Shown piece by piece: positions 29,909-58,701 of a stretch of 64,000 nt of DNA. A program made the translations under genes and the position numbers. Under the pieces are notes generated by a model that saw only the letters and a program-made list of their open reading frames with translations, had not been told where the DNA came from and searched no databases. Origin of the DNA: Planctomycetes bacterium GWF2_41_51 (GTDB lineage Bacteria > Planctomycetota > Phycisphaerae > Sedimentisphaerales > UBA12454); the NCBI GenBank assembly GCA_001825665.1, contig MHXZ01000090.1:1-64000 (forward strand). The letters are read 5' to 3'. Numbering within the stretch: the first letter of the stretch is position 1; the number at the start of each line of letters is the position of its first letter.

Positions 29909-31302
29909 AACATCTCCGCATCAATTGCATTACTTTTTTGATTATTTAATTGCTGATGGATAAATTCCATTTTCGCTTTCGAGAGAGGATACAAGAAAGT
30001 TAAAATCATCGCGATTACCATAAACACGATTGGTAAAAATACAAAGAAGAGACGCAGGTTGAACACTGATTCCGGAGTTTGTATAGTTGCCTTTTGGTCA
30101 TACCCTGCTATTATAAGTACATAACCGCTAACTAACATAACCACCGATACTCCAATTTTGACTAATAGCGTAAAGATTGAACCGTATGCACCTTCTCTGC
30201 GCAATCCTGTCTTTAATTCATCAAGGTCGCATACATCTGCCATCATTGATGAAGTCAATACCCATACAAAAGAAAGTCCGGGTGAGACAAGTGCGGCAAA
30301 AACAAGCTGCAGCCAGGGATAATTAGGATTAAACAAAAACCAGCTTGCAGGAAACATTAATGATATAAGGGTTAAGCCAACTAAAAGAATTGGTTTTTTC
30401 CCAAAACGCTGTCCAAGATAATTAATGACAGGTACACCCAATATTCCCATTACTCCATAAGTTGTTTGATACCAAAACCATGCAGTGGCGGTACGACTTT
30501 GATCATTTGGAAAGATGTAAGAAAGGTTGAGAAAATATACCAGCGGAAACACTGCCAATATCCCTATCAACACACAGACTACAATCATCGACAAAAGCAG
30601 AAAGATTTTATTAGAGAACGTATATTTCAATGCAGAAGAAATATTAATCTTATTTTGTTTGTGCAGTTTTTCGCGTGAAAATATAGCAGCAAGGATCCCA
30701 AAAACGGCGACTAAACCTCCAAATAAAACGCCGACAACGCGAGCTCCTTCAACAAGGTTGTTTCCGAACTGCGGCCGCATACAGAGCCACAAAATGCTCG
30801 GCAGGATAAAAGCAGCACCGGCATTCATAAAAAATGTTTTATAAGACATAACACTCGTTCGCTCGTTATAATCATTTGAAAGTTCATATCCAAGCGCATT
30901 GAACGGAACTGAATAAATAGTATATGCTGTAAAAAATAATATTGATGTGATAAGAAAATATATGAATATACCTTGTTCGCTAAGAGATGTTGGCGGCATC
31001 CAGAGCAAGGCACACAAAAGCCCTCCCAATATTGCGCCAATGAACATATAAGGCCTTCTCCGACCCCATCGAAGTCGCGAATTATCTGAGATATTGCCCA
31101 TCAATGGATCAGTTACCGCATCCCATAGCCTCGGTATTGAAAGAGCATAACCAATCAATATCGGGCTGATCCCCAGTCCCGTTACATAAAGCGGGAATGC
31201 CAAAACTCCGATAATATTAGCCATGATAACATCAGATATCGCACCAGTAGCATAAAACGATTTAATACTAAAGGATAATTTATTATCAGATAATTTGTTC
31301 AT
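29905..31302 (-). CDS. GPH-family (MelB-like) sugar:cation symporter
   Basis: The 465-residue membrane protein has about 12 hydrophobic spans. The loop after the second span reads RLWDAVTDPLMGNISDNSR followed by WGRRRPYMF, the signature of the glycoside-pentoside-hexuronide symporters of the major facilitator superfamily. It probably imports mono- or oligosaccharides released by the exported enzymes, driven by H+ or Na+. It overlaps the next gene in each direction by 4 bp (UROD-fold at its end, the first WNWWDP paralogue at its start), so its expression is locked to the degradation genes. Confidence 0.88.
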   Translation of the reverse strand: MNKLSDNKLSFSIKSFYATGAISDVIMANIIGVLAFPLYVTGLGISPILIGYALSIPRLWDAVTDPLMGNISDNSRLRWGRRRPYMFIGAILGGLLCALLWMPPTSLSEQGIFIYFLITSILFFTAYTIYSVPFNALGYELSNDYNERTSVMSYKTFFMNAGAAFILPSILWLCMRPQFGNNLVEGARVVGVLFGGLVAVFGILAAIFSREKLHKQNKINISSALKYTFSNKIFLLLSMIVVCVLIGILAVFPLVYFLNLSYIFPNDQSRTATAWFWYQTTYGVMGILGVPVINYLGQRFGKKPILLVGLTLISLMFPASWFLFNPNYPWLQLVFAALVSPGLSFVWVLTSSMMADVCDLDELKTGLRREGAYGSIFTLLVKIGVSVVMLVSGYVLIIAGYDQKATIQTPESVFNLRLFFVFLPIVFMVIAMILTFLYPLSKAKMEFIHQQLNNQKSNAIDAEML

Positions 31303-32552
31303 TCTAAAACTTTCGACTTATTATTAATTTCTTCTTTAAAAGGAGTTGCGCTTTCAACAACCAATTCATGTATCGCTTCAATAACCTGTTTTTTATCAGC
31401 TTTTCCTTTCCAACCGTAAACACACATTACTTTGCAGCCCGGAAGATTAAGTATCGTGCTGATTGCGTCTTTCCATATCTTTTTTTCATGAGGAAGCAGA
31501 TTCCATTCGGCCATAGCCCAATATGGAGCGTCACTTTTTTCGACATTACGCATTATACCTGCATTTTCTGCAGGATTTTTTGAATACCAATAATCACTCC
31601 ATCCCGGACATGAATATTTATTAACCGCCGCATCATACATTAACTCGGCATTTTGATTTCCCCAGCCGTGAGTAAAAATTTTTTCTCTTGGAAATCCAAA
31701 ATCATAGGCGTATTTGGATAGATCATCGAGATGAATTTTAACAACTTTGTAGAGGTCTTCTTCAGTAATATCTCCCGAGTCGCGAATCCCTGCCGTCTTG
31801 ACAGCAGCAAAACCCTGCTGCACAACTCCGCGGCTTAATACATCTTCTTTGATTGCTCCTGACTGAGGATCTTCGGATTTTGGCTTATCCATAAACTGGT
31901 CGCCATTTGGATAATAAAAAGAATTGATTCCGATTGCACTTTCCCAACCCAGATTCAAACCCGCAAAGAGATATTTTTTATCTTCCGGCAATGTTTTATA
32001 CCAATTTAAAATAATCGGCATCAAAACGTCCATTGACTGATGGCATGCTTTTCTATATTTCGGGCTCATCAAATTCGTAGGCGGCAGTACTCGTAACTGT
32101 TTTCCCCAATTCCGCCAGCAAATCTTTAATGCATATTCAGGCCCCCACCATCGCCATTCAACATTGGTGCGATTATTCGGGTCATATCCAGGCTTATTGG
32201 GATCCCACCAATTCCATAAATCAGGCCGATTTTGCCACCATTGTTCGCCATCAAATTTGATCCAGACAGGAGTGTTTGTCTTTTCAGAATTAAGCAAAAT
32301 ACTTTTCAACGAATCACTAAGTTCATTAACATCATTTCTCAAATAAGAAAAAATAAAAGCAAGGCCAACCTTGACTCGAGCTTGCGGTGGACCCTGAAAA
32401 TTATTCATTACTTGCATAAAATTTGCTTCATTGATGTTTTTAGACCTTGGCATCATTAGAATAATATATTGCTCCTCGGTTTTTGTATCTGCCATTGCCC
32501 AAAGCATTTGAGGTATAAACAATGATGAGATTAAAATTAAGTAATATTTCAT
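31299..32552 (-). CDS. Putative secreted glycosidase, WNWWDP family, copy A
   Basis: I do not recognise this 417-residue family, which has four similar copies between 31.3 and 38.2 kb and a fifth domain at 46.4-49.2 kb. A signal peptide (cut near LWAMA) precedes a compact domain with invariant blocks: KFDGEQWW (Asp101, Glu103), DLWNWWDPNKPGYDPNN, VEWRWWGPEYALKICWRNWG, LRVLPPTNLMSP, GLNLGWESAIG (Glu204) and APYWAMAEW (Glu349). Aromatic-rich clefts and two invariant Glu about 145 residues apart fit a retaining TIM-barrel glycosidase (inference). This copy has PPTN and WESA where the other three short copies have PPPN and WESS. It lies between copy B and the transporter. Confidence 0.8.
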   Translation of the reverse strand: MKYYLILISSLFIPQMLWAMADTKTEEQYIILMMPRSKNINEANFMQVMNNFQGPPQARVKVGLAFIFSYLRNDVNELSDSLKSILLNSEKTNTPVWIKFDGEQWWQNRPDLWNWWDPNKPGYDPNNRTNVEWRWWGPEYALKICWRNWGKQLRVLPPTNLMSPKYRKACHQSMDVLMPIILNWYKTLPEDKKYLFAGLNLGWESAIGINSFYYPNGDQFMDKPKSEDPQSGAIKEDVLSRGVVQQGFAAVKTAGIRDSGDITEEDLYKVVKIHLDDLSKYAYDFGFPREKIFTHGWGNQNAELMYDAAVNKYSCPGWSDYWYSKNPAENAGIMRNVEKSDAPYWAMAEWNLLPHEKKIWKDAISTILNLPGCKVMCVYGWKGKADKKQVIEAIHELVVESATPFKEEINNKSKVLE

Positions 32553-32563
32553 GAATTCTCCAG

Positions 32564-33817
32564 TTAATTTTCTTTCACAGACAATTTGCTTTCAAGAATG
32601 ACCTGCCGAATTGCTTCCTTGATAGACTCGTTTGTTGAAATTCCCTTCCAGCCATAAATGCAAAGCAGTTTGCAGCCGGGGTAATTGAGCGTTTTAGCAA
32701 TAGCTTCTTTCCATATATTCGTCTCATGCGGTCTTGGCAGCCACCATTCCACAGCGGCCCAATATGGCGCATCGCTTTTTTTAATATTTCTTGTTACACC
32801 TTTGTCTTCATTAGGATCATGGGCATACCAGTAAATACTCCATCCCGGACAACTGTATGAATTTACCGCAGCGTCATAAAGCAGCTCACCGCTTTCATTT
32901 CCCCAGCCATGAGTAATAATTTTATCCCGGCTAAAACCAAAATTGTAGGCATGCTTGCAGATATCCTCAAGATACATATTGACAACCTTGCACAAATCTT
33001 CTTCAGTAATATCTCCTGACTGGCGAATACCCGCTGTCTTAACAGCCGCATAACCCTGCTGTACAACACCTCTACTCAAAACATCCGCACGTACAAATCC
33101 CATTGGATCATCCGTTTGGGGCTTATCCATTAATTCTTCGCCATTTGGATAATAATAAGCATTAACGCCAATTGAGCTTTCCCATCCCAGGTTTAAACCT
33201 GCAAAAAGAAATTTTTTATCTTCGGGCAAAGATTTATACCAGTTAAGAAGTACCGGCATTAAAACATCCATTGACTCATGACATGCTTTTCGATACGCAG
33301 GACTCATCAGATTCGGAGGTGGCAAAACGCGAAGTTGTTTGCCCCAGTTACGCCAGCAAATTTTTAATGCATACTCAGGCCCCCACCATCGCCACTCGAC
33401 ATTGTTGCGATTATTTGGATCGTAGCCCGGCTTATTAGGATCCCACCAGTTCCATAAATCGCTGCGTTTATTCCACCACTGCTCACCATCAAATTTAATC
33501 ATTATTGATGTATTTGTTTTTTCTGCATAAAATAAAATACGTTCCAATGATTTAGCAATAGTTTTAGGTTCAGTTTTGAGATACGAAAGAATAACAGCAG
33601 CGCCTATTTTGATTTGAGATTGCGAAGAATCTGGGAAATGACTCATCATATCATTGAAATCTGCTTCATCAATATTCGCAGGCCTTGAAACATCAAATTC
33701 CTTCATAATCAACAAATACTTCTCATTTATTTGAGAATCAGACAATGCAAACAACGTACACGACATTGATAAAACTAAACTTATTGTTACGAATATTTTC
33801 ATATTAACTCTTGCCAT
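32564..33817 (-). CDS. Putative secreted glycosidase, WNWWDP family, copy B
   Basis: A 417-residue paralogue of copy A with all invariant blocks: KFDGEQWW (Asp110, Glu112), DLWNWWDPNKPGYDPNN, GLNLGWESSIG (Glu213), THGWGNESGE (His303) and YWAAVEWWL (Glu357). A signal peptide is present. The ATG at 33802 (residue 6) follows AAGAG and gives a cleaner signal peptide than the ATG at 33817, so the start is uncertain by five residues. It begins 4 bp after the DUF3604 gene and ends 11 bp before copy A. N-terminal 100 residues vary most among copies; the core is strongly conserved, implying purifying selection rather than decay. Confidence 0.8.
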   Translation of the reverse strand: MARVNMKIFVTISLVLSMSCTLFALSDSQINEKYLLIMKEFDVSRPANIDEADFNDMMSHFPDSSQSQIKIGAAVILSYLKTEPKTIAKSLERILFYAEKTNTSIMIKFDGEQWWNKRSDLWNWWDPNKPGYDPNNRNNVEWRWWGPEYALKICWRNWGKQLRVLPPPNLMSPAYRKACHESMDVLMPVLLNWYKSLPEDKKFLFAGLNLGWESSIGVNAYYYPNGEELMDKPQTDDPMGFVRADVLSRGVVQQGYAAVKTAGIRQSGDITEEDLCKVVNMYLEDICKHAYNFGFSRDKIITHGWGNESGELLYDAAVNSYSCPGWSIYWYAHDPNEDKGVTRNIKKSDAPYWAAVEWWLPRPHETNIWKEAIAKTLNYPGCKLLCIYGWKGISTNESIKEAIRQVILESKLSVKEN

Positions 33818-33820
33818 AAT

Positions 33821-35734
33821 TTAAATTACGTGATTACGTGAAACCCAGATTGGTGTTGACCAGGCTTTATGACCATTTTTCTGAACAACCCTTAAATAAT
33901 AGAAATGATCTTTATCGAGAGCTTTATCTTCAAATGAAACTTTAATAATTCCATTTGCGGATTTATCTGTCCTGCACGCAAGATTGTCTTTCAACAGGAT
34001 CACTTCAATATCTTCATCGGCGCCAACTACTTCATATTCAATAAGACATGAATCGGCAGCATTTACCTGCGTACCCATTATTTGGCCGTTGATTTTGAAA
34101 TCGACATATATCCTGTCGAAACTTGCAGCATAAACACGATAATTCCACCATGCATCCCATATGCTTTCACGAGTCAAGTCTTTGGCCATAAAAGCACCTA
34201 ATGAACCAGCATACATAAGGTAGTTCGATCTGCCCGGCCGGGAAACATGCGTATCAGACGAACCAAACACTCCAAAACGCTTGCCCAAAGCCAGTCCAGC
34301 CTGCATAGTTTTATTAGTGTTGGTTGTATGTAAAGGCTTGTCGTTTCCGGCATATTCACCTGTTCCATGATTTGAAAAGATTTCTGCAAATCGCATAAAC
34401 CGATCATCCCAGGACTGCCATGGGTAAATATCTTGCCCGCGATCAAACGCAAAATGATGAGGCCCGCCAATCACATCTATACCCTTGCTTAAATAATCAC
34501 TCTCGACAATTTTGTAAAACTGTTCAATTTTTTTAGGACATTTGCTAATCGGAGGAACATCACAAGTCTTGTAATATAAATTTATATGATCCTGATTTGT
34601 GCCTGACTCTTCAGCAAGGAAAGTAACGAAACGGCCTGGTGCATAATATTTTATTGCCATGCGCTTCATCAATTCCCAATCGTTATGCCAATGGTCAGTT
34701 AACGCGCAAACATCGAGATTTGCCTCATCCCTGCCAAATGAATAATATTCATCCGGAGTGCCGCAGCCATCAGAAACGCGGGTATGACCATGCAGGTCAC
34801 CGAAGTAAATGCGAAATTCCGGTGCCTTATCAAAAATACGAATCGGTTCGCTTCGACCGTTTAGTTGTTTCGATATAAATCGCAAGCGATGTGCACCCGG
34901 TTTATCAATTCGTATTTTGAGCCGAGCCATTCCTTTAACTAATTTGACGTTTGAAGCTAATAGATTATTATCTTCATCCCTGATTTCGACTTTTCCATTA
35001 TAATCTTTAGCTGTATTAAAGTATTTGTCTTCAGCTTTCACAAAAAGCTCAAATTCTTTACCGGCCTCTTGCACCATTTGAGCTGAACCAGTGATATGGT
35101 GAGCTTCTTGTGCTATCAAATCAAGTTTAGGATAATCACCGATACCTTTATATATTCCGCTCGCATCGGAATCTACCGCTACAAAAAATTCATGATCTTT
35201 ATCCGTACAAATCGGCGGAATTGCGCCGAATTCTTCATTACCAATAGTTACAAGAATCTTTGTACCAGCCTTTAAAGGAACATTTGTTACTTTAGACTTC
35301 AGGCATTGATGGAAAATAAGCGGTGTCGAGCCGGACCAATCAGGTGCAGGCGGACCGCCTTTTTTTCTATGGAATGGCGGCGGCGCCCAACTGTACCATT
35401 TGCTTTCAAAATTTTCAGAGTGCTTGCCAATTACACCCATATATTTTTTACCTTTTGGATCATCTGACTGGAAATCTGACCAGAAGCCATAATCCGTATT
35501 CCATATCGCAGCATGATGTACTCCAATCCATATTCCGCCTCCGACTGGGATGCCATTCTTTCCAACAGTAATCTCAAGGAGCACCCTTGTTTTTTCCCCG
35601 ATAATTAATTTACCAGGTTTGAGAATGCGGGCATATCCTTCGCCGCTTCCATCAAATGCATCCGCAATTATGGGCATAAATGCAGCGGCAGTTACACCTT
35701 GTGTCATACGTACTAAAAATGTGCGTCTATCCAT
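33821..35734 (-). CDS. DUF3604 (PHP-like) protein, Tat-exported
   Basis: This 637-residue protein begins with a Tat signal (MDRRTFLVRMTQGVTAAAFM). After two beta-rich domains (about 30-300), a PHP-like metal-binding domain starts with YFGDLHGHTRVSDG (residues 311-324; His315, His317), then CALTDHW, GGPHHFAF, EIFSNHG and FGSSDTHVSRPG. These are DUF3604 hallmarks; the fold predicts a metal-dependent hydrolase or phosphoesterase, but no activity is established that I can name. The C-terminal NGHKAWSTPIWV resembles the end of the PHP protein at 19357. It is inserted in the middle of the WNWWDP array, directly abutting copy C (no gap) and 3 bp from copy B. Confidence 0.82.
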   Translation of the reverse strand: MDRRTFLVRMTQGVTAAAFMPIIADAFDGSGEGYARILKPGKLIIGEKTRVLLEITVGKNGIPVGGGIWIGVHHAAIWNTDYGFWSDFQSDDPKGKKYMGVIGKHSENFESKWYSWAPPPFHRKKGGPPAPDWSGSTPLIFHQCLKSKVTNVPLKAGTKILVTIGNEEFGAIPPICTDKDHEFFVAVDSDASGIYKGIGDYPKLDLIAQEAHHITGSAQMVQEAGKEFELFVKAEDKYFNTAKDYNGKVEIRDEDNNLLASNVKLVKGMARLKIRIDKPGAHRLRFISKQLNGRSEPIRIFDKAPEFRIYFGDLHGHTRVSDGCGTPDEYYSFGRDEANLDVCALTDHWHNDWELMKRMAIKYYAPGRFVTFLAEESGTNQDHINLYYKTCDVPPISKCPKKIEQFYKIVESDYLSKGIDVIGGPHHFAFDRGQDIYPWQSWDDRFMRFAEIFSNHGTGEYAGNDKPLHTTNTNKTMQAGLALGKRFGVFGSSDTHVSRPGRSNYLMYAGSLGAFMAKDLTRESIWDAWWNYRVYAASFDRIYVDFKINGQIMGTQVNAADSCLIEYEVVGADEDIEVILLKDNLACRTDKSANGIIKVSFEDKALDKDHFYYLRVVQKNGHKAWSTPIWVSRNHVI

Positions 35735-36988
35735 TCACATTCCTTTACTTTCAAGACAGACTTCTCGAATTGCATCGTGAATTTCTTCGTTTTTATCAAA
35801 GAACCACCACCAATAAATGCCTATCATTTTGCAGCCTGGAAGGCTTAAAGTTTTGCTTAATGCTTTTTTCCATCTCTCTTTTTCGTATGGTGGCGGAAGG
35901 ACCCATTCCACAACTCCCCAATAAGGTGCATCACTCATTTTTATATTTCGCATTATGCCTTGATCTTGACCCGGGTCATCAACGAACCAGTATTCACTCC
36001 ATGCCGGGCAGCTATATTGATTTACAGCCGCATCATACATCAATTCGCCGCTTTCATTTCCCCATCCATGAGAAATAATTTTATCCCGGCTGAACCCAAA
36101 ATCATGAGCATACTTACATAAATCGTCGAGATGAATTTTAACCACCTTATACAAATCTTCTTCAGTGACATCTCCTGATTTACGTATACCGGCAGTTGTC
36201 AACGCTGCATAGCCCTGCTGCACAACACCCCTACTTAATATATCTGCTCTGACTGCACCTGATTGAGGGTCATTCGCTTCAGGCTGATCATATAACTGAT
36301 CTCCATTCGGATAATAAAATGAATTTATTCCAATCGAGCTTTCCCAACCAAGATTCAAACCTGCAAAAAGAAATTTTTTATCTTCGGGCAAAGTTTTATA
36401 CCAATTTAGAATAATCGGCATCAAAACATCCATTGCGTCATGACAAGCTTTACGATATTTCGGGCTCATCAGATTCGGCGGCGGCAACACACGAAGTTGT
36501 CTGCCCCAATTTCGCCAGCAGATTTTTAACGCATACTCCGGCCCCCACCAGCGCCATTCGACATTATTTCGATTGTTCGGGTCGTAGCCAGGCTTATTAG
36601 GATCCCACCAGTTCCATAAATCAGGACGTTTTTTCCACCACTGCTCTCCGTCAAGCTTAATCAGAATCGGAGTATTGGTTTTCTCTGCATAGAATAAAAT
36701 GCGTTCGAGAGATTTTGCGATTGTATTTACATCAGCATTGAAATAAGAAATTATAAATTTAATTCCTATTTTTGTTTCTGTATCGGACAAATCTTTAAAA
36801 TGATCCATCAATTCATTGAACTTAGTTTCATTAATTATCTCAGGTCTGGAGAGATTGAAATCTTTCCTGATCATTATGTATTTGATGTCGGGATTGTCTT
36901 GCGATATTGCATGCAACGTACAAGGCATCAAGCCTATATTAAGCAAAAATAAACAATAGATATCAATGTTAAAACGATGCTGAATCAT
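35735..36988 (-). CDS. Putative secreted glycosidase, WNWWDP family, copy C
   Basis: A 417-residue paralogue with a signal peptide (cut near LHAIS). The core blocks are KLDGEQWW, DLWNWWDPNKPGYDPNN, NVEWRWWGPEYALKICWRNWG, LNLGWESSIG (Glu216), SHGWGNESGE and YWGVVEWVL (Glu361). The following VLPPPYEK differs from the PHE of the other short copies. It is closest by eye to copy B in the LERILFYAEKTNT stretch, suggesting a recent B/C duplication. It overlaps copy D by 4 bp and abuts the DUF3604 gene. Function as in copy A: probable polysaccharide hydrolase, substrate unknown. Confidence 0.8.
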   Translation of the reverse strand: MIQHRFNIDIYCLFLLNIGLMPCTLHAISQDNPDIKYIMIRKDFNLSRPEIINETKFNELMDHFKDLSDTETKIGIKFIISYFNADVNTIAKSLERILFYAEKTNTPILIKLDGEQWWKKRPDLWNWWDPNKPGYDPNNRNNVEWRWWGPEYALKICWRNWGRQLRVLPPPNLMSPKYRKACHDAMDVLMPIILNWYKTLPEDKKFLFAGLNLGWESSIGINSFYYPNGDQLYDQPEANDPQSGAVRADILSRGVVQQGYAALTTAGIRKSGDVTEEDLYKVVKIHLDDLCKYAHDFGFSRDKIISHGWGNESGELMYDAAVNQYSCPAWSEYWFVDDPGQDQGIMRNIKMSDAPYWGVVEWVLPPPYEKERWKKALSKTLSLPGCKMIGIYWWWFFDKNEEIHDAIREVCLESKGM

Positions 36989-38232
36989 TTGATTGCATTC
37001 TCCTTTATGACTTCGCGAGCCGCTTCGATTACTTCAGGGCTTTTTCTTATTAGTTCCCAATTAAATACGCAAAGATATTTGCAATTACGATAACTAAGTG
37101 TTTTCTCAAATGCAGTTTTCCAAAGTGCCTTTTCGTGTGGGGCAAGAAGCAGCCACTCGGTAGCAGCCCACTGATTAGCATCACTTATATCCAAGCACCT
37201 GTTTATGCCGATATTTGATTCCGGCATATCAGGTCGATCATAGGTGCTCCAGCCAGGACAGGAATATTTATTAAGTGCGACATCGTAAAGTTTTTCACCT
37301 TTAGGATTTCCGACTCCGTGTGAAAATATCTTTTCACGAGGGAATCCGAAATCATAAGCACGTTTACATAAATCTTCGACATGCATTTGTGAAACCTTTA
37401 CAATATCTGATTCATTTATATCTCCGCTTGTCCTGATTCCGGCAGTTTTCACCGAAGCATAACCTATTTGCACATAACCGCGGCTTAAGACATCATCATG
37501 TATGTACGGCTTATGAACGTCATCTATTTCAGGCACATCGATCAAATCGTTACCATTAGGATAATAATATGCGTTCATTCCTATCGAACTTTCCCATCCG
37601 AGATTAAGACCAATGAACAAATATTTTTTATCGTCAGGCAACGCTTTATACCAATCTAAAACAATTGGCATCAATTGATCCATCGCTTCATGACAGGCAT
37701 TTCGGTATGCAGGACTCATCAAATTAGGCGGGGGCAAAACTCTCAACTGTCTGCCCCAATTTCGCCAGGCAATCTTTATTGCATATTCCGGTTCCCACCA
37801 GCGCCATTCGACATTGTTTCGGTTATTCGGGTCGTAGCCGGGCAATTCGGGATCCCACCAGTTCCATAAGTCCGGACGATTCTGCCACCATTGCTCACCA
37901 TCTAATTTTACAAGGACAGGTGTATTTGTTTTTAGTGACAACGACAAAAATCTTTTAAGGTCAACCTGAACAGTATCTATATCTGTTTTCAAATAAGAAA
38001 AAATAAAACCAATGCCCGGCTTTACTTTCGAGTTGGGTAAATCCGCAAAATGCCTTGTAATCTCATTAAAACCTGCCACATTAATTGTTTCAGGATGGTG
38101 CTGATTAAACACATCTTCAGGCGTTCTCATAAAAGCCAAATATTTAATATCATCTTGAGAATTAGAATCCTGTGCGCACAAAACTGAACATAACGCTCCA
38201 AAGATGGCGAATGAGAACATGATTTTTTTCAT
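36985..38232 (-). CDS. Putative secreted glycosidase, WNWWDP family, copy D
   Basis: The 415-residue paralogue has a signal peptide ending near LCAQD and the blocks KLDGEQWW, DLWNWWDPELPGYDPNN, NVEWRWWEPEYAIKIAWRNWG, LNLGWESSIG (Glu214) and QWAATEWLL (Glu359). It is the most divergent of the four short copies: HGVGNPKGE replaces HGWGNESGE, and the SCPGWSTYDRPDMP loop is shorter, so it may have different substrate contacts. It is first of the four in transcription order, 40 bp after a sulfatase gene, with a conventional ATG. Confidence 0.8.
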   Translation of the reverse strand: MKKIMFSFAIFGALCSVLCAQDSNSQDDIKYLAFMRTPEDVFNQHHPETINVAGFNEITRHFADLPNSKVKPGIGFIFSYLKTDIDTVQVDLKRFLSLSLKTNTPVLVKLDGEQWWQNRPDLWNWWDPELPGYDPNNRNNVEWRWWEPEYAIKIAWRNWGRQLRVLPPPNLMSPAYRNACHEAMDQLMPIVLDWYKALPDDKKYLFIGLNLGWESSIGMNAYYYPNGNDLIDVPEIDDVHKPYIHDDVLSRGYVQIGYASVKTAGIRTSGDINESDIVKVSQMHVEDLCKRAYDFGFPREKIFSHGVGNPKGEKLYDVALNKYSCPGWSTYDRPDMPESNIGINRCLDISDANQWAATEWLLLAPHEKALWKTAFEKTLSYRNCKYLCVFNWELIRKSPEVIEAAREVIKENAIK

Positions 38233-38272
38233 TATAACCCTTCCATTAATGAAATTTACATTGTAGCAAATC

Positions 38273-39751
38273 TTACCGTGATTTGCCTTTTACATAATAA
38301 TCTTTTAAAAGATCTTGCATCTTATTTACAATTTCAGGATGTTGAGAGCACAGGTCCTTTGATTCGTATGGATCATTTTCAAGATCGAACAATTGTCCGA
38401 TGGTTGGTTGTTCGGGTGTTAGATAGCCTTCTTTGACACGTTCCCCTTTACCTTGGCCGTGGATATATTTCCATTTTCCTTTGATGATTGCATAAAGTCC
38501 GCCTCGACTGTTCAAGACAAGCCCTCTTTCAGAATGAATATTTTGTGTGCCTCTGAAAGCATCATAAACATTATAGCTATCAGGCGCTGCGCCATCAGGA
38601 ATTTCTTTGCCGAGCATCGCGGCAAAAGTCGCAAGCATATCATTGAATCCAAAAAGCTGTTGATTTGTTTGTCCGGATTTTATAACTCCCGGCCAGCGAG
38701 CAATAAATGGAATGCGCAGTCCGCCCTCGTAAATATCACCTTTGTCACCGCGCCATTTCCCATTTGGATTATAATTATAATTTTTGAAAGCATCACGGGC
38801 CGCATTTTCGCCGCCATTGTCACTTGTAAAGATTATCAAAGTTTCATTGTCGATTTTATTTTTCTCAAGAGATTTTATAATTTCTCCAACAGCCCAGTCA
38901 GTCTCCATAACAAAATCACCATAATCGCCAACTTTGCTTTTGCCTTTGAACTTTTTTGAAGGTGCATACGGGTCATGCGGAGCGCTTGGTGCAAAATAAA
39001 GAAAGAATCTTTCATCTTTATTTTTATTAATATACTCAACTGCTTTCTTTGTTAAATCTCCAAGCATTTCTTCCTTTTCATATCTTGCCGCTTTGGCACC
39101 GGTCTCTATACCATGCTTTGATTTGGCCAATACAAGGGGATCTTTAGGATCATATTTATAAATACTTTTATTTTCCATATACACGCTGGGCGGATAAAAA
39201 TGTCCTACAGGAAGGCCGAAGAAATAATCAAATCCAATATCGTTTGGCCCAGGCTCTATAGGCGGAACATAATGCGTCTGCGGATCAAATTTCCCGGAAG
39301 ATCTCGAGCGTAAGCCAAGATGCCATTTTCCTATACACGCTGTTTTATAACCTCCCTGCTTGAAAACCAAAGGCAAAGTAAAACTTCCAGGTTCGATGAG
39401 CAGCGGTTTATGGGCGACCACACCGGTTTTAAGCGGTGTTCGCCAACAGTATTTACCTGTGAGCAAAGCAAAACGAGCAGGAGTGCAAATTGATGTCGGG
39501 GTATGAGCGTTTGTGAAACGCATTCCCTGTCGTGCAAGTTTATCGATATTTGGCGTTTTGATTCTGTTCTCACCGTAGCATCCCACATCATTCCATCCAA
39601 GGTCGTCAGTAAATATCAATATTACATTCGGGTTTTTATTTCCACCTGAAATTTTCATTTTTGCGTTCGCTAAATGACCAAAAATACTTAGCGACGAAAG
39701 GCCAATAATTGAACTTTTGATAAAATCTCGCCTGTTCTGCAAATTTTTCAT
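38273..39751 (-). CDS. Sulfatase, Tat-exported
   Basis: A 492-residue sulfatase of the N-acetylgalactosamine-6-sulfatase-like type. NRRDFIKSSIIGLSS is the Tat motif, VILIFTDDLGWNDVGCYG the metal site, and CTPAR at 89-93 the formylglycine signature. GLRSRSSGKFDPQTHYVPPI with GFDYFFGLP is typical of that subgroup (tentative). The end is intact (DLLKDYYVKGKSR). It lies 12 bp after the LamG-sulfatase gene and 40 bp before copy D of the WNWWDP family, implying that desulfation by this enzyme and glycan cleavage by the array are co-expressed. Confidence 0.9.
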   Translation of the reverse strand: MKNLQNRRDFIKSSIIGLSSLSIFGHLANAKMKISGGNKNPNVILIFTDDLGWNDVGCYGENRIKTPNIDKLARQGMRFTNAHTPTSICTPARFALLTGKYCWRTPLKTGVVAHKPLLIEPGSFTLPLVFKQGGYKTACIGKWHLGLRSRSSGKFDPQTHYVPPIEPGPNDIGFDYFFGLPVGHFYPPSVYMENKSIYKYDPKDPLVLAKSKHGIETGAKAARYEKEEMLGDLTKKAVEYINKNKDERFFLYFAPSAPHDPYAPSKKFKGKSKVGDYGDFVMETDWAVGEIIKSLEKNKIDNETLIIFTSDNGGENAARDAFKNYNYNPNGKWRGDKGDIYEGGLRIPFIARWPGVIKSGQTNQQLFGFNDMLATFAAMLGKEIPDGAAPDSYNVYDAFRGTQNIHSERGLVLNSRGGLYAIIKGKWKYIHGQGKGERVKEGYLTPEQPTIGQLFDLENDPYESKDLCSQHPEIVNKMQDLLKDYYVKGKSR

Positions 39752-39763
39752 TTTTAAATCCTT

Positions 39764-41854
39764 TTATAATTTCAAAACTTGTTCAGACGTCAACATATTA
39801 TCATATATTCGCACATTCGATATATTGCCCGTAAATCCATTTAATTTCATTTCGGTAAGTACTTTGCTTTCTCCTGCGCCGCCGATATACATCTTTCCTG
39901 TCGGCTCCACCATCCAATATAAAGGTCCGACTGTGAGTTCTGAAATTTTATTACCATCTATAAATAAATGAGCCTTTCCATTGCAAACCGTTCCAGTAAC
40001 CCTGACCCACTTGCCGGTATATTGTTTGTCGGCATCGCAAATAAACAATGATTGGTTTGCTCTGAATGCAAATGCAGGCATACCGTTCTCTACAAAAACC
40101 GCAAAACCGCTTTTGGAGTCGCCCCATGACGCTACTACTCCATCCCCCTCAGCTTTGAAAGTAACGTCAAAAGCAAATGGCCCGGTTTCAAATTTAGTAT
40201 CTTTAAACTCCGTCGAAGCGGTATATTTACCACGGCAATGAAGAACTTTACCTTTCTCAGAATCAGTAATGACAGCCTCGTCAGAAAATAGTGATGCATG
40301 ATTATTATGACCCGAAGAATCCTCGATAACACTATTTTTGATTGTTTCAAAATTATACTGTGCTACCAGACCTGTACCTGCCCGCTTTGGCATACGAATT
40401 ACAGGCGCCGGCTTCCACTGTGATTTGTTGTAGCCTGTTTCATCCTTAAGTTTTTCAATCAAAGCCATTAATTCTTTTTTCTTGTTTTCAAATGCAGGTT
40501 CAAGAATAAGATTCTTTTTTTCAAATGGATCATTTACCAAATCATACAATTCATCAATATCATTGATGTCCGGGTAATGAATAAGTTTCCATTCTTTCGT
40601 CCGCACGCCAACCATAGTTGGAATCACGGGAGTCAAATCTACAAAGTATTCATATAGAAATGCTTTTCGCCAATTCTGAGTTCTGCCTTTAAATAGCGGC
40701 GTCCACGAACTTCCTTGCATATACGATGGCGATTTAATGCCCGCAAGATCAAGCAGTGTTGGAGCCAAATCTATGTTCAAAACCATTTCATCGGTGGAAG
40801 AACCTTTTTTTATCATCGCCGGATAACTCATTACGATTGGAATACGTAACGATTCTTCATACATAAGTCGCTTATCGAGACGACCGCTGTGCTCACCAAG
40901 AAAATATCCGTTATCCCCTGCAAAAATGATAACGGTGTTTTCCAAAAGCCCTTTACTTTCAAGAGCATCGTAGATTTTTCCTATACCTTCATCTACCGCG
41001 CTAATGCCTCGATAGTAATCTAAATAAGTCTTTTTTTGACCATCGAAAAGTTTGGATGCATTTTCACTTTCTTCGAGCTTAATATATTTACCCGGCGTCT
41101 TAGTCCTGAATATACCTTTCATACCACTATGCGCTATCCATTGCGGTTTAGTTTCCGTCTCTTCACGAAAGTTATCAGGCTCAGGAAGTTTCACATCTGA
41201 GTATAAATCAGCATGCCTCGATGCAGGTGTAAATGGCTGATGCACAGCCTTATGCGATAAGTACATTAAAAATGGCTTGTCAGAATCCTGCTCCTTAATA
41301 TAATCAACAGCCTTTTCACTTAGAATGTCAGTGATATAACCCTTGCTGGTGAACTCTCGTCCATTTTCGTTCAGCACGCAATCTTCGTATATTCCTTGCG
41401 CATCAAAACCGAGCCAATATTTAAAGCCGGGCCGAGGCTCATTGCCATAGGCAAGGTGCCATTTACCAAGAAATGCTGTATTGTAGCCGTGCTGTGCGAG
41501 TATTTGTGCAAAAGAGGGAGTTTTATTGAAATCGAAATCTCTGCTCTCATTCTGAATTACGCCATGAACGTGAGAGTATGCTCCGGTAAGAAAACACGCT
41601 CTGCTTGGCGAACAGATAGAATGAGTTACAAAGGCATTTTTAAAATGTACGCCTTCTTTTCGAATACGATCGATGTTAGGCGTTTTGAGCCATGGATACT
41701 TGCCCATAAACCCCATTGCATCCCAACGTTGATCATCGGTAAGAATAAATACAAAATTAGGTTTTTTATTTTTGCCAATGCCATTAGTAATTGATGCTGT
41801 ACTCAGAGCTACTGCACCAACTACACACTGCTTTAAAAAAGTCCTTCTTTCCAT
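39764..41854 (-). CDS. Sulfatase fused to a C-terminal LamG-like domain, Tat-exported
   Basis: At 696 residues this is longer than a usual sulfatase. Residues 1-475 form the enzyme: Tat signal MERRTFLKQCVVG, VFILTDDQRWDAMG, CSPSR at 81-85, GKWHLAYG and FAGDNGYFLGEHSGR. Residues about 490-696 form a LamG/concanavalin-like domain (GLVAQYNFE, DSSGHNNHASLF, GKWVRVTGTV, HLFIDGNKI, VRIYDNMLTSEQVL), probably a carbohydrate-binding module that holds the enzyme on the polymer. Fusion to a binding module suggests it acts early, on the intact polysaccharide, rather than on released oligosaccharides (inference). Confidence 0.9.
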   Translation of the reverse strand: MERRTFLKQCVVGAVALSTASITNGIGKNKKPNFVFILTDDQRWDAMGFMGKYPWLKTPNIDRIRKEGVHFKNAFVTHSICSPSRACFLTGAYSHVHGVIQNESRDFDFNKTPSFAQILAQHGYNTAFLGKWHLAYGNEPRPGFKYWLGFDAQGIYEDCVLNENGREFTSKGYITDILSEKAVDYIKEQDSDKPFLMYLSHKAVHQPFTPASRHADLYSDVKLPEPDNFREETETKPQWIAHSGMKGIFRTKTPGKYIKLEESENASKLFDGQKKTYLDYYRGISAVDEGIGKIYDALESKGLLENTVIIFAGDNGYFLGEHSGRLDKRLMYEESLRIPIVMSYPAMIKKGSSTDEMVLNIDLAPTLLDLAGIKSPSYMQGSSWTPLFKGRTQNWRKAFLYEYFVDLTPVIPTMVGVRTKEWKLIHYPDINDIDELYDLVNDPFEKKNLILEPAFENKKKELMALIEKLKDETGYNKSQWKPAPVIRMPKRAGTGLVAQYNFETIKNSVIEDSSGHNNHASLFSDEAVITDSEKGKVLHCRGKYTASTEFKDTKFETGPFAFDVTFKAEGDGVVASWGDSKSGFAVFVENGMPAFAFRANQSLFICDADKQYTGKWVRVTGTVCNGKAHLFIDGNKISELTVGPLYWMVEPTGKMYIGGAGESKVLTEMKLNGFTGNISNVRIYDNMLTSEQVLKL

Positions 41855-41868
41855 ACTCTTTCATTCCC

Positions 41869-44769
41869 TTATCGACTTAATAATATAGAATATATTTCAC
41901 CAGCTTTAACATTGATGTTAATGGTGCTGTCAGGATTGATTATGAAAGACTCCATAACATTTTCCTCAAGTCCGACTTTGCATGCATCACGAATAATTTT
42001 AGGAATTTTTACAGTTACAGCAATATCCTTGCCTGATGGGTTAAAACCTCTAAGAATATAACCGCTGCCATACTCTGCTTTCTTTAAAGCTGTAATGACA
42101 AAGTCAGGATTGTCAATTGCAAAAAACGAGTGTTTCTGCGGCAATACACCTTGATGTTTTGTACATTGAACAACTCTCATTGGAGCATTAAACGTTTCGG
42201 CAATACTCATTATTCCGCCTTCCTGCCAACTGCCGTTATGAGGAACTATCGCATATCTGAATACCTGCGTTCCCTGGCATTGAGCAAGCGGCTGAGGAAC
42301 ATAGGTTTCAGAATTATTTCCTGCTGTTCCAAAGCATCGAAGTAAAGTAAGTGCAATGGTACGTTTTTTATTATCGACAACTTCGTATTCCGGCAACCCC
42401 GTTTGCAGCAAAGCCATACCGTTAGTTCCATCATTTACATCGACAAATGAATGCGCTGGAAGAGTTCTTGCCGCTGACTCATACCATCCGCTTGAATCGG
42501 GTATCGCGATTTCCCTTTTGACAACATCAAAAGGAGAATCAGCATAGCAATATCGAGCCTTTGATAAATTCGTATCAAAACAAACTCTCAAACGGTGATC
42601 TTTTATATTGTTTTGAATTGTCGTTTCGAATTCGAGAACTTTGCTGTGCTTCCGTAAAGTTACATCCGTAGTAATACGAAGTATTTCTTTTCTTTCCGAC
42701 CGCTTTACAGGTTCCTGGCCAATCCACTCATTTCCATGAGGTACATAAACCTTCACTCCTGCATCAATGCCTTGGGGCAATTCCCAACTTCTTTCGATTC
42801 TGTAAGTCGCATAAAGTTTTCCAGAAAAGAGAAGAGCACATTGTGCGTTCTGCTCCAGCGTTGTGTACGTATTGTTAATATAAGGCTGTTGGTAAATAAG
42901 AGGTCCGCCCATTTCTCCTGAATCTTCAAAGTAATGCAGCTTATCGTATTTACTGCCCGTATGTTTATCAAGCAGTTCCAGCGTACCATCCCCGCGAATC
43001 TCCGCACGTATAAAATCATTTTCCAGAACGTTCGTTTCGGGGCAAAGTGTATTGACGGGACGATCTACGGTTTGCTTTGGAACAACTTTAAAGCAGGCAT
43101 ATCCCATTGAAGGTATATTTATTGCACTAAACGCTATTTTGACTCGAGCAACATCAAAACTGATATGTGAACCATATTTGAGATATGCAAACCTGGTATC
43201 GTCTTCTAATGTAAGCAATTGTGATTCCACCCGATTTCCCGCAGAGTCATACACCCATACAGTCAAGGGCCTTTTATATTTGCTTCTAGGAACAAATCTT
43301 TGTCCCCATTCATGAGGAATATCCACTTCGGCAACGATTTCTTCGGTCCTCGAAACAGCCGATGAATTAAATATGGTTACTCCAATTTCTTGTTCGCCCA
43401 GATGTGAATAATCAATTTCTGTTACGACTTTAACAAGAGAATCTCTGGTGATAACTTCTGCAAGGTCTTTAACATTTCGGTATCTTTCTTCCATAGTTGT
43501 GGTAACTCTGTCCACGTGACAGCCGCCGATACCGTCATGCTGCTGATTTTGCAAAAGTTCACGCCATGCCAATTCAAATACTTTACAAGGATATTCTTTG
43601 CCAAGCAGATTCGCCCACACTGCCGCAGGTTCCGCCCAGTTTTCAAGCCTATTTTCGCAATCGGTATTCTGCTGCTTCAGCGGCATCCTCGCTGAAAATA
43701 CTCCGATATAAAGTGGAGCGAATGGATCGCTGCTTCGTTCGACATTGAGCATTTCGCCTTGAAACACATCGAGTTTGTTATATAGACCTTTATCATTTAG
43801 CCCGCGTTTAACTTCTTTTATATATGTGCCAAGATCGCTTATTTCAATTTTTCCAAAATCAATATCACGATTAAGTTTTTCGACAAGGTCAGGAACAGCC
43901 GGGTCAGGGTTCTCCTGATCGAACCCCTGCAGGAATAACAGATTTTCGGTGGACGACTTATCTTTTACAGTATCAAGAAGTATGTCAAGCCCTGCTTTTG
44001 CATCTTCCAGACTTTTAAATTGCGGTTGATTTATAACCCAATGGTTAAAATCGCTGCTGTACGAATCGCAAAGATTAAAAAGAAAACCATTATTATTTAC
44101 TATTTTTTCCCTGTTGAGTCCGCCCTGATCATTATAAGGCCGATATACGTAAACCCAGAAATTCAGCCTGTGATATGAGCCGAATGTAATACCAAGAGCC
44201 TCGCTACCATCGGGAGCTTTCCACTTGAATTCCAGTTTATCTATATTTGACTGATCAATCCCGCGATAAAACATTATTGTATCCATACCGAACTGACGGT
44301 ATATCTGCGGAAGCTGCGAAACCTGTCCCCATGAAAATATGTTGTAACCGGTTTTCATCACCTTGCCAAGGTTACCTGCTATCTTATGCCCCAAAAGCAG
44401 ATTGCGAACCAATGCCTCGCCGCTGACCAAAAACTCTGCCGGCAATGTATACCACGGTCCTGTCAATAGTCTGCCTTCTTTTACAAGCTTTTTCACTCGT
44501 TCCGTATTCTCGGGACGAACAACAAGATAATCATCCAGAAACGATGCTTGCGAATCGGTATGGAAGTATGCGAAACGCGGATCACTTTCCATTGTATTGA
44601 TAAGGATATCGACCGCTTCAACCAATCTCGTGCGCGTCTCAACAAAAGACCAGCGATACTCTCGATCCCAATGTGTATTTATAGCCAAATACATTTTATA
44701 CTGCTTTGCGGTCGATTTCTTCTCATCAACGTCTTTGATAACTTGTTTTTGCAAATCTTTATTGTTCAT
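41869..44769 (-). CDS. GH38-like protein lacking the canonical nucleophile
   Basis: This 966-residue protein has GH38 architecture: N-terminal INTHWDREYRWSF (His33, Asp35 as metal ligands), a helical bundle and C-terminal beta sandwiches (ENDFIRAEIRGDGTLELLDK). But where GH38 enzymes have D-x-F-G-H, it reads NIFSWGQVSQLPQI: Phe145 replaces the nucleophile Asp and Gln149 replaces His. The underlying codons (TTT, CAG) are unambiguous. QQHDGIGGCHVDRV supplies the second metal His/Asp pair. No signal peptide, so it is cytoplasmic. It may use another residue, act on an unusual mannoside or be non-hydrolytic. It is 14 bp before the LamG-sulfatase and much longer than the GH38 at 10127. Confidence 0.75.
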   Translation of the reverse strand: MNNKDLQKQVIKDVDEKKSTAKQYKMYLAINTHWDREYRWSFVETRTRLVEAVDILINTMESDPRFAYFHTDSQASFLDDYLVVRPENTERVKKLVKEGRLLTGPWYTLPAEFLVSGEALVRNLLLGHKIAGNLGKVMKTGYNIFSWGQVSQLPQIYRQFGMDTIMFYRGIDQSNIDKLEFKWKAPDGSEALGITFGSYHRLNFWVYVYRPYNDQGGLNREKIVNNNGFLFNLCDSYSSDFNHWVINQPQFKSLEDAKAGLDILLDTVKDKSSTENLLFLQGFDQENPDPAVPDLVEKLNRDIDFGKIEISDLGTYIKEVKRGLNDKGLYNKLDVFQGEMLNVERSSDPFAPLYIGVFSARMPLKQQNTDCENRLENWAEPAAVWANLLGKEYPCKVFELAWRELLQNQQHDGIGGCHVDRVTTTMEERYRNVKDLAEVITRDSLVKVVTEIDYSHLGEQEIGVTIFNSSAVSRTEEIVAEVDIPHEWGQRFVPRSKYKRPLTVWVYDSAGNRVESQLLTLEDDTRFAYLKYGSHISFDVARVKIAFSAINIPSMGYACFKVVPKQTVDRPVNTLCPETNVLENDFIRAEIRGDGTLELLDKHTGSKYDKLHYFEDSGEMGGPLIYQQPYINNTYTTLEQNAQCALLFSGKLYATYRIERSWELPQGIDAGVKVYVPHGNEWIGQEPVKRSERKEILRITTDVTLRKHSKVLEFETTIQNNIKDHRLRVCFDTNLSKARYCYADSPFDVVKREIAIPDSSGWYESAARTLPAHSFVDVNDGTNGMALLQTGLPEYEVVDNKKRTIALTLLRCFGTAGNNSETYVPQPLAQCQGTQVFRYAIVPHNGSWQEGGIMSIAETFNAPMRVVQCTKHQGVLPQKHSFFAIDNPDFVITALKKAEYGSGYILRGFNPSGKDIAVTVKIPKIIRDACKVGLEENVMESFIINPDSTININVKAGEIYSILLSR

Positions 44770-44856
44770 TTTTATCAGCCATTCATATCTTAAAAAACTA
44801 ATTATAACTTTGTCTAAAATAACTATTTAAGTATTCTACGTTTTCATCTGAATTCT

Positions 44857-46347: not shown

Positions 46348-46394
46348 GATTAATTTTTCCTTTTCAACGAAAAAACTAACTAAAAAACTATATA

Positions 46395-49187
46395 TTAATC
46401 CGACACACTTGTGGACAGCCATTCTTGCGCCGTCTCACAAATATCTTCAATATCTATCTGTCCGTCCCTGGTTAAGTCAACATAAATACTTTCTGCATCA
46501 GAAGTGAGCCAAAACTGAGCCAATAATGAATAATCGGAAAAATTAACCGTTCCGTCATTATTAATATCAGGCAGCAAACCAAAACCCTCAGGAGTAACAG
46601 ATGAAGCATTTGTTCCTCCGTATACTCCCATATCGATCCGTTTGTTGTCAACAAAAATTAACTCATCAGCAAGACCATCGCTCGGACATCCCGCATCTAT
46701 CATCTGGCTTGCAAAATCATCCATCAGCAAACCTGTGCCGAATGTAACGCTGCGGCCGGCACTTGAACATAAATGATAATCGTCCTGCTCGCTGTCCACA
46801 AAACCTGCATCTTTATCCACATTACCAAGACCCCACGTCAGATTGCTGACTCCTTCAAGCAAAACACTGGACTGGCTGTTTTGAATATTGCAATAATTGA
46901 TAACAGCATCAGAATCTCTAAGTCCTACTTGGTATAAAGCCGCAGGCTGATTATTAATTAGAATTGAATTATGCAATTTAATATTTGTTCCGCTGTTCGT
47001 ACGGATTGCAGTGCCTTTATTCGAAGCATAATTTTCTGTAAATGTAGAATTCACTATATTAACGTCGCTGTTATTGGCATAAATCGCACCGCCATATATT
47101 GAAACATTGTTGAACAACAGACAATGTTTGATATTTACCGTAGCGTCCTGAATGAATAATCCGCCGCCGAAATCTCTGCTCGTACAACCAAATATTTGGC
47201 AATTTTCTACATTAAGATTGCCCCCTATACAATTTATAGCTCCACCATTTATTGCATAGCCGTTCTTTATAGTAATTCCTTTTATATTCACAAATTTTCC
47301 TGCATTTTGAATTTCAAAAACGCTGCTTGCACCGCCGGCATCAATGACAGTATCTGCCACAACATCCCAATCGTTTTGGTTCTCTGAGATTATGGTTAGC
47401 GATTTACCCTGCCAATTTATATTTTCAAAATAATAACCTCTTGGAATAACGATAGTCCCGCCTTCTGTTGCCGCATTTACTGCGTCCTGCAATGAAAAAG
47501 AAATCGTGTATTCGTTCTGCAAATTCCTGATCGCATTTAACCTTACCAGGCTGTTTGTTACATTATCCCAATTGAAAATATTTATAAATTTGCATCTTGC
47601 ATCCAGGTTGTTTTCAAAAAAAGTCTGCCATGCTGAAGTTGTATCGGAACCTTGAAAAAGAGTTTCGGCAAAAGCCCAATAAGATGCATTGGAATCATTT
47701 ATTGCGTTATCTATATCTGCGCTTATATTTCTTATGCCGCTATTATTGTTTGTATAATACGACCATCCCGGATTGGAATAATTATTAACCGCAGCCAGTT
47801 TATTCGTGCCGCTGTTTTTGAAATGCCAGCTATGAGTAAATATTTTATCTCTCGGAAGCCCCAATTCATTGGCTTTCATCGCAAGGTCTGTCAAATGCAT
47901 TCCTGTTACGCGTGCAATATCTGATTCGGTTATCGTTCCCGAAGTCTTAAGCCCGGAAGTAGTCATCGCCGCGTACCCTGTCTGCTGTACTCCGTAAGCC
48001 GGCGGCAATGTACCATTAACACTGTAAGTGGGGTCATGAGATGAATCTGTGGGCCAGGTTTCATAATAATAATTGCCATTTGGATAATAGAAGCTGTTTA
48101 AACCTATCGAACTTTCCCAGCCGACTTTAAGCCCTACGAACAGGTCTTTTTTTCCGGGGGGCAGATTATTCCACCATTGCACGATAATCGGTATTGCCAA
48201 TTCGTATAACCTATGCACCTCTGTGCGATATTGCGGACTCATAAGATTCGGCGCTGGTTTTACCCTGTGCAGACTCCCCCAATTGCGCCACGATATCTTG
48301 ATAGCGTTTTGCGAACCCCAATTATACCATTCGACATTATTGCGATTATTAGGATTATAGCCGGACATTGACGGATCCCACCAGTTCCACAGATCCTGTC
48401 TGTTTGTCCAATAATTTTCGATATCTATTTGTACGACTATCGGCACGTTATTCTGTTCTGCTAATTGTAAGAATGTTTGAAGTCCGTTCAAAGCACCCGC
48501 AGGGTCAGGATTTTCCATCAGTCTAATCATTCGGCTCGCACCGGCTTTAACCTTCGCCTGTGAATGGTTCGGCAGTTTGCTTTTCAAATCATTGAAAAGG
48601 GCCTGACTTAAAGGTGGACCGGTTGTTGAGAAATTAACTACTATAAATTGCCCATTTTCATTCGCAGCGACAAACTTTTTGTTGTTTGTAACTGTGATCC
48701 AGTCAATGCGAATCTCTGCGTCGCTAAGGTCGGAATAGCTCAATATAGGTGCTTGCGGCATATCAAATCTGATTTTGTTAATTGTTCCTTCATAATGCTC
48801 ACCACTGTGGTAAATCTCTGATGCATTAAAACGAACTATGCTTTGTCCCGGATAAATGTTAAAAAATCCAACGCCATAACCATTTGAATTCCAATAAAGA
48901 AATCGGCACACCATTCCTTCGGCGGGAATTTTATATGCCATAACTTTCAACGATATCTCTTCGTGTCCTGTCGCGTCATAACTTAATGAAGACCTCTGCA
49001 AAACAGGAGTCCAATCACTGCTTGGCTGCTGGTATCTTACAACAAGGCTTTTGTCTTCATGAGAAAGAATTATTGAATCGTTATGGCGAAACCACCCCTG
49101 AAGATCATCTTTGAAATCAAAAATAATGTGAGCATTCACGCAATTAGCCAACAGAATTGCGATTCCTATGATGTAGCTTTTCAACAT
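46395..49187 (-). CDS. Modular secreted protein: WNWWDP domain, beta-helix, dockerin-like tail
   Basis: The ATG at 49187 begins a signal peptide (MLKSYIIGIAILLANCVNA); an upstream TTG at 49202 is less likely. From that ATG the product is 930 residues. Residues about 20-150 form a beta-sandwich carbohydrate-binding-like domain. Residues about 155-555 are the fifth member of the WNWWDP family (QIDIENYW, DLWNWWDPSMSGYNPNN, GWESSIGLNSFYYPNG, SYWAFAETLF), keeping both invariant Glu. Residues about 565-855 are a right-handed beta-helix with Asn-rich turns (VENCQIFGC, IKHCLLFNN, IVNSTFTEN). The tail holds two dockerin-like loops (DINNDGTVNFSDY, DLTRDGQIDIEDI). A strong terminator lies 14 bp upstream of the start codon. 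It heads the long cluster and probably attacks the intact polymer. Confidence 0.82.
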   Translation of the reverse strand: MLKSYIIGIAILLANCVNAHIIFDFKDDLQGWFRHNDSIILSHEDKSLVVRYQQPSSDWTPVLQRSSLSYDATGHEEISLKVMAYKIPAEGMVCRFLYWNSNGYGVGFFNIYPGQSIVRFNASEIYHSGEHYEGTINKIRFDMPQAPILSYSDLSDAEIRIDWITVTNNKKFVAANENGQFIVVNFSTTGPPLSQALFNDLKSKLPNHSQAKVKAGASRMIRLMENPDPAGALNGLQTFLQLAEQNNVPIVVQIDIENYWTNRQDLWNWWDPSMSGYNPNNRNNVEWYNWGSQNAIKISWRNWGSLHRVKPAPNLMSPQYRTEVHRLYELAIPIIVQWWNNLPPGKKDLFVGLKVGWESSIGLNSFYYPNGNYYYETWPTDSSHDPTYSVNGTLPPAYGVQQTGYAAMTTSGLKTSGTITESDIARVTGMHLTDLAMKANELGLPRDKIFTHSWHFKNSGTNKLAAVNNYSNPGWSYYTNNNSGIRNISADIDNAINDSNASYWAFAETLFQGSDTTSAWQTFFENNLDARCKFINIFNWDNVTNSLVRLNAIRNLQNEYTISFSLQDAVNAATEGGTIVIPRGYYFENINWQGKSLTIISENQNDWDVVADTVIDAGGASSVFEIQNAGKFVNIKGITIKNGYAINGGAINCIGGNLNVENCQIFGCTSRDFGGGLFIQDATVNIKHCLLFNNVSIYGGAIYANNSDVNIVNSTFTENYASNKGTAIRTNSGTNIKLHNSILINNQPAALYQVGLRDSDAVINYCNIQNSQSSVLLEGVSNLTWGLGNVDKDAGFVDSEQDDYHLCSSAGRSVTFGTGLLMDDFASQMIDAGCPSDGLADELIFVDNKRIDMGVYGGTNASSVTPEGFGLLPDINNDGTVNFSDYSLLAQFWLTSDAESIYVDLTRDGQIDIEDICETAQEWLSTSVSD

Positions 49188-49200
49188 TAAATTCGTTCTC

Positions 49201-49236
49201 AAAGAAAACCGGGAGAATCCTATTACATTCTCCCGG
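49201..49236 (-). terminator. Rho-independent terminator just upstream of the large cluster
   Basis: CCGGGAGAAT (49209-49218) and ATTCTCCCGG (49227-49236) form a perfect 10-bp stem with an 8-nt loop. On the minus strand it is followed by TTTTCTTT. It ends the gene at 49264-51516, yet its T-tract ends only 13 nt before the ATG at 49187, so it could also act as an attenuator for read-through into the cluster. Confidence 0.85.
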
Positions 49237-56899: not shown

Positions 56900-56937
56900 T
56901 GTTAGTGTATCTTTGAAAAAAAATTATCCTTTAATTC

Positions 56938-56958: not shown

Positions 56959-56965
56959 ATCAGTT

Positions 56966-58636: not shown

Positions 58637-58675
58637 ATGTATGGACGTTAAATGTTCTTTAGTAACTTTAATTTT

Positions 58676-58697: not shown

Positions 58698-58701
58698 TTT
58701 T

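Follow-up and report, generated by a model that had tools for sequence, protein, structure and literature searches.

An unnamed family of putative glycoside hydrolases linked to alpha-mannosidases and sulfatases in Planctomycetes bacterium GWF2_41_51

Introduction

The alpha-mannan loci of Bacteroidota combine enzymes of glycoside hydrolase (GH) families GH76 or GH99 with GH92 enzymes and SusC/SusD-type genes. Here, we describe a 64,000-nucleotide stretch of the genome of Planctomycetes bacterium GWF2_41_51 (contig MHXZ01000090.1, positions 1 to 64,000; hereafter the window), which encodes five members, A to E, of a protein family that is unnamed in Pfam, NCBIfam and PDB. Copies A-E are probably secreted glycoside hydrolases that cut mannose-containing, often sulfated glycans together with exo-alpha-mannosidases. 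The link of the family to exo-alpha-mannosidases (GH92, GH38) and sulfatases is new here; the general kind of enzyme, a TIM-barrel glycosidase, is already known.

Some loci of the family (designated below by L numbers) resemble the Bacteroidota GH76/GH99 loci in being of the SusC/SusD type, with GH92 adjoining a putative second hydrolase, but L058 and L062 hold the unnamed family where GH76 or GH99 would be expected. The closest worked-out analogue is the breakdown of diatom sulfated alpha-mannan to mannose by a sulfatase-GH195 endo-mannanase, GH92 and a second sulfatase (PMC13063451). With the GH195/GH99 endo-alpha-mannanases the family shares the sulfatase and GH92 context, a sulfatase fusion (in L042) and the proposed role; however, profile comparison with GH99-like sequences revealed no similarity, GH195 being compared by description and context.

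Family identity and conserved residues

Copies A, C and D are 63, 68 and 57% identical to copy B, and the corresponding domain of the modular protein E is 41% identical; the E-values of these four copies against B (1e-89 to 1e-205) indicate similarity far beyond chance, and A-D plus the E domain are one family. A search of the whole 4.83-Mb assembly found these five copies and no further one. The genes lie where the initial annotation had placed them, all on the minus strand, which it had left unsaid, and the plus-strand frames there are rich in stops. The sequence blocks that it described as shared by all copies are exact in A-D (DGEQWW, PGYDPNN, VEWRWW, and LNLGWES), while in E they are replaced by DIENYW, SGYNPNN, VEWYNW and LKVGWES; DLWNWWDP is the only block exact in all five.

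Its proposal that the family is unassigned agrees with our searches of Pfam, NCBIfam and PDB sequences, in which both the single window copies and a 49-member alignment gave only chance-level matches; for the fucanase families GH107, GH168, GH174 and GH187, the comparison was the profile search of PDB sequences, which gave nothing. Several families were addressed individually. First, none of the 49 members matched PF02449 (GH42). Second, neither a PF02156 match nor profile similarity to GH26 was found for the 49 members. Third, PF01373 (GH14) matched neither the window copies nor the 49 members, and a screen of 392 genomes of the phylum gave no true GH14 member from which a profile could be made. 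Fourth, there was no PF16317 match and no profile similarity to GH99, the GH99-like comparison set being small and weak. Finally, profile comparison with UroD, sulfatase, GH2, GH92 and GH43 gave nothing, tblastn against plasmids yielded no family member, and no description of the family was found in literature searches. A GH195-type protein sought via weak GH99 matches turned out to be an unrelated 924-aa protein.

Residue conservation was counted over 53 members, the very distant subfamily included. Glu357 (numbering of copy B) is invariant (53/53), and Glu213 is present in 52 members, the exception being L026, with Lys. The two residues are 145, 144, 145 and 145 positions apart in A, B, C and D, as had been noted for the short copies, and 150 apart in E; both are retained in the far subfamily. 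Glu141 is also invariant (53/53), as are His303, Tyr329, and Trp353, and position 110 is Asp in 51 of the 53 members and Glu in the other two. In the 49-member alignment, position 212, just before Glu213, is occupied by Trp (37 members), His (10) or Val (2).

Predicted fold and candidate catalytic site

The TIM barrel anticipated by the initial annotation was recovered with confidence by AlphaFold2 (copy B, input with 49 aligned members): the model has eight strands alternating with helices, a mean predicted local distance difference test score (pLDDT) of 93.7 and a predicted template modeling score (pTM) of 0.89. Glu213 is located three residues past beta4 (205-210) and Glu357 inside beta7 (353-358), so that in the topology of the model, which is not a measurement, both would face one cleft, at the places expected for the acid/base and the nucleophile of a clan GH-A-type enzyme. 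Most of the invariant columns (28 of 32) map to the C-terminal ends of strands and the loops following them, i.e., to the catalytic face (hypergeometric p 6e-6). Together, these features support the enzymatic nature of the family and the proposed role of the Glu pair.

All 50 matches listed by VIA-align are TIM-barrel carbohydrate enzymes, mostly of clan GH-A (GH35, GH42, GH164, GH5) together with GH14, with Z-scores of 19.6-22.6 over 269-315 residues at 7-12% identity and with ties across families; GH99 is not among these 50 matches, but its absence does not prove that the folds differ. Foldseek E-values favor Cwp19, GH14, GH5_4, GH164, GH113 and GH26, and other TIM barrels are also among the matches. 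The clan GH-A barrels (GH35, GH42, GH164, GH5_18) share with copy B the predicted (beta/alpha)8 fold (Z 20-22.6), a Glu after beta4 and a Glu on beta7, a correspondence by position in the model, function aside. In contrast to them, the family has no Pfam match, bears its WNWWDP signature on a long beta3 loop, and has no Asn directly before the beta4 Glu; Asn at this place is typical of clan GH-A but not universal, His being found in GH26.

The GH14 beta-amylases may share the fold as well, their Z-score of about 20 being equalled by many GH-A entries, and they occupy Foldseek ranks 4-8, 10 and 11, with E-values down to 9e-6. These enzymes are inverting and carry catalytic acids on the same two strands, beta4 and beta7, and also at beta3, matching the places of Asp110, Glu213 and Glu357 here. 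With GH14 among the best Foldseek matches, the retaining mechanism assumed in the initial annotation is not established.

Genomic context

The core of the window cluster is conserved in G144, a genome of another bacterial family of the same order, which contains orthologues of copies B (57%) and E (44%) and of the conserved partners listed in Table 1. The G144 cluster lacks counterparts of the window's fucosidase, heparinase-like, GH2 and GH43 genes. Fucan, considered as a substrate because of the GH29 gene, was set aside, as this gene is outside the conserved core; with its GH38 and GH92 genes, the context favors mannose-containing glycans over fucan.

Links to alpha-mannosidases and sulfatases were also found in other bacteria. 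GH92 genes are located beside family genes or at most 6 kb away in L036, L048, L058, L062, L063, L065 and L076, and GH92 is fused to the family domain in L066, which gives eight GH92-linked loci. Seven of them belong to Bacteroidota (all but L036), versus 0.42 expected under random placement, although this expectation overstates the association, since carbohydrate-active enzymes (CAZymes) cluster in polysaccharide utilization loci. In L062 of Proteiniphilum acetatigenes the order is a SusD-type gene, two surface-protein DUF genes, the family gene and GH92, and the family gene is therefore the sole hydrolase candidate besides GH92 among the neighbors scanned. GH38-linked clusters are four in number: the window, G144, L011 and L017; in the latter two the family gene comes after a HAD gene and GH38, at a distance of 8-49 bp from GH38. 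Sulfatase genes occur near L008, L026, L027, L040, L046 and L052, and a sulfatase is fused to the family domain in L042; other fusions involve GH43-like and GH5-like domains.

In the Verrucomicrobia locus L036 the GH92 gene precedes, at a distance of 87 bp, a gene (2508-4946) whose product joins DUF5722 (PF18989) to the family domain; DUF5722 may itself be a glycan enzyme. In L076 and L077 a PhyH-type oxygenase gene is directly upstream of the family gene and GH2 directly downstream.

Distribution and phylogeny

A scan of GTDB contigs revealed 79 loci, distributed patchily over at least six phyla (Planctomycetota, Verrucomicrobiota, Lentisphaerota, Bacteroidota, Armatimonadota, Hydrogenedentota, and a few others). 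The family was found in 6 of 294 sampled genomes of the phylum, four of these having the distant subfamily alone, in 2 of 296 sampled Bacteroidota genomes (query genome counted), in 10 of 118 sampled genomes of the order and in none of six other sampled genomes of the same genus. In the tree, a group with support of 100/99 unites A-D, one copy from G144 and the copy from Victivallis (L011); A, B and C represent a later local expansion. E pairs with the modular protein of G144 (100/100).

As most other loci carry a single family gene, the amplification is a local feature of this genome and tells little about the role of the family. The suggestion, drawn from this amplification, that it supplies the main backbone-cleaving enzyme stays a conjecture.

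The distant subfamily (L087-L090, L165, L167) has proteins of about 530 aa; in L087-L090 RPDLWNWW is replaced by RPDLWNY and both Glu are kept, and the substrate of the subfamily may differ from that of the main family. The L026 protein with Lys for Glu213 (9770-11983) is possibly inactive; its gene belongs to a cluster with seven sulfatase-like genes.

Proposed function and alternative explanations

In the proposed mechanism, the catalytic domain would be a (beta/alpha)8 barrel whose long beta3-alpha3 loop, carrying WNWWDP...NVEW, probably lines the substrate cleft. The catalytic pair would most likely consist of Glu213 and Glu357, and Asp110, Glu141, His303, Tyr329 and Trp353 would line the active site. 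The enzyme would hydrolyze a bond within a mannose-containing glycan, endo action being more likely, and the products would be processed further by sulfatases and by exo-alpha-mannosidases of GH38 or GH92. Sulfated glycans would be the target in this window, as well as in several members of Planctomycetota, Verrucomicrobiota and Lentisphaerota. More tentatively, the family could be new to CAZy and act in several phyla as an endo-enzyme on sulfated mannose-containing polysaccharides, replacing the GH76, GH99 or GH195 of known alpha-mannan loci.

Several observations weigh against this proposal. Conservation at positions 110 and 141 equals that of Glu213, so that other acids may be involved, and in one relative, L026, residue 213 is Lys. 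The linkages cut by known clan GH-A enzymes are mostly beta-D or alpha-L and not those of alpha-D-mannosides. Moreover, many loci of Verrucomicrobiota and Planctomycetota have no mannosidase detected within 10 kb, and other loci adjoin GH2, GH43, GH29 or GH78; because of this variation, one common substrate is not established.

A retaining enzyme of clan GH-A type cutting a beta-linkage and an inverting one of GH14 type cutting an alpha-linkage would both be compatible with the model, and, as both are sub-cases of the mannose-directed hydrolase proposed above, confidence in them overlaps with confidence in it. The chances of the former we put at nearly even: Glu213 would be the acid/base and Glu357 the nucleophile, acting, e.g., on beta-mannosyl linkages of N-glycan cores or beta-glucuronosyl linkages of glucuronomannan, while GH38 or GH92 remove alpha-mannose. 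The best structural matches belong to clan GH-A; GH164 and GH5_18, both beta-mannosidases, are among them (VIA-align), and GH26 and GH113 beta-mannanases are among the Foldseek matches, but the tied Z-scores do not single out one GH-A family and the residue before the putative acid/base is not the usual Asn. A weak but colinear hhalign match to GH42 (probability 8%, E 0.004) places Glu357 opposite a GH42 Glu, its E-value rising to 0.05 without the distant subfamily.

The GH14-type alternative, in which Asp110 (end of beta3), Glu213 and Glu357 would take the places of the GH14 acids and alpha-linked mannose would be cut by inversion, appears unlikely. The Foldseek ranks, the presence of Asp or Glu at position 110 in all 53 members and the neighboring alpha-mannosidases speak for it; however, GH35 was ranked higher by VIA-align, the GH14 Pfam match is missing, and the context is one of mannosidases and not of starch.

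It is still less probable that the family corresponds to a recent CAZy family absent from Pfam and NCBIfam, such as GH195 (endo-alpha-1,3-mannanase on diatom sulfated mannan): the setting of the sulfatase-GH195 fusion with GH92 and a second sulfatase is similar, L042 being the sulfatase fusion here, but GH195 is described as a distant relative of GH99, to which the family has neither a Pfam nor a profile match. A non-hydrolytic function, i.e., a binding protein or a non-hydrolytic TIM barrel retained in glycan clusters, would accommodate L026 and the other TIM barrels listed by Foldseek but is very improbable given the invariant acids and aromatics concentrated on the catalytic face and the fusions to GH92, GH43-like, GH5-like and sulfatase domains.

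If the mannose-directed hydrolase reading is right, the signature WNWWDP...NVEW would identify, across at least six phyla, secreted carbohydrate enzymes connected with the release of mannose and sulfate. Algal sulfated mannose-containing glycans represent an important carbon pool. With Proteiniphilum acetatigenes DSM 18083 and Parapedobacter defluvii, carriers of the family are available in culture, in which the activity can be tested directly.

Features of the window

Coordinates are given in Table 1. The hydrophobic N-termini of A-E, judged by eye, suggest secretion. In copy E, the N-terminal domain may be a carbohydrate-binding beta-sandwich, and the repetitive region resembles, from its sequence, a right-handed beta-helix; a Pfam Beta_helix match is present in the fusion protein of L029.

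Table 1. Family genes, domains of copy E, candidate catalytic codons and conserved or recurrent neighbors in the window (percentages, identity in G144)
Feature	Coordinates	Strand	Remarks
UroD-like protein	28832..29908	-	Recurrent neighbor: L011, L017, L167 (distant member, adjoining)
MFS_2 sugar transporter	29905..31302	-	Conserved partner, 53%; also L011
Copy A	31299..32552	-	417 aa; hydrophobic N-terminus; E204/E349
Copy B	32564..33817	-	417 aa; D110/E141/E213/E357; used for modeling
Glu357 codon, copy B	32747..32749	-	Candidate nucleophile or base, on beta7; position by arithmetic from gene start
Glu213 codon, copy B	33179..33181	-	Candidate acid, just after beta4; position by arithmetic from gene start
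DUF3604/PHP-like protein	33821..35734	-	Inside the array; conserved partner, 58%
Copy C	35735..36988	-	417 aa
Copy D	36985..38232	-	415 aa
Sulfatase	38273..39751	-	Conserved partner, 58%; related genes near L008, L011
Sulfatase with LamG domain	39764..41854	-	Conserved partner, 51%
GH38 alpha-mannosidase	41869..44769	-	Conserved partner, 60%; also L011, L017
Copy E	46395..49202	-	935-aa modular protein; G144 orthologue, 44% over 928 aa
E, dockerin type I (residues 879-921)	46440..46568	-	PF00404, E=6e-6
E, repetitive region (residues 561-870)	46593..47522	-	Common to G144 orthologue
E, family domain (residues 190-560)	47523..48635	-	Similarity to short copies
E, N-terminal domain (about residues 24-188)	48639..49133	-	No Pfam match; also in G144 orthologue

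A second UroD-like gene is located in the glycan cluster at 4795-6096, and genes similar to these two also occur near family members in L055 and L073; speculatively, the UroD-like proteins could transfer methyl groups from O-methylated sugars. The gene at 13197-14243 (plus strand), which faces a GH29 fucosidase gene, encodes a protein of 348 aa for which Pfam gave no match at 0.001. Three tandem paralogues of 554-559 aa occupy 55235-60381 on the plus strand; the two scanned, at 55235 and 58702, contain the NAGPA phosphodiester glycosidase domain, and the C-terminal region of the latter is similar to the Photorhabdus PLL/PHL propeller lectins. A fourth NAGPA protein, with a dockerin, is encoded at 17766-19376.

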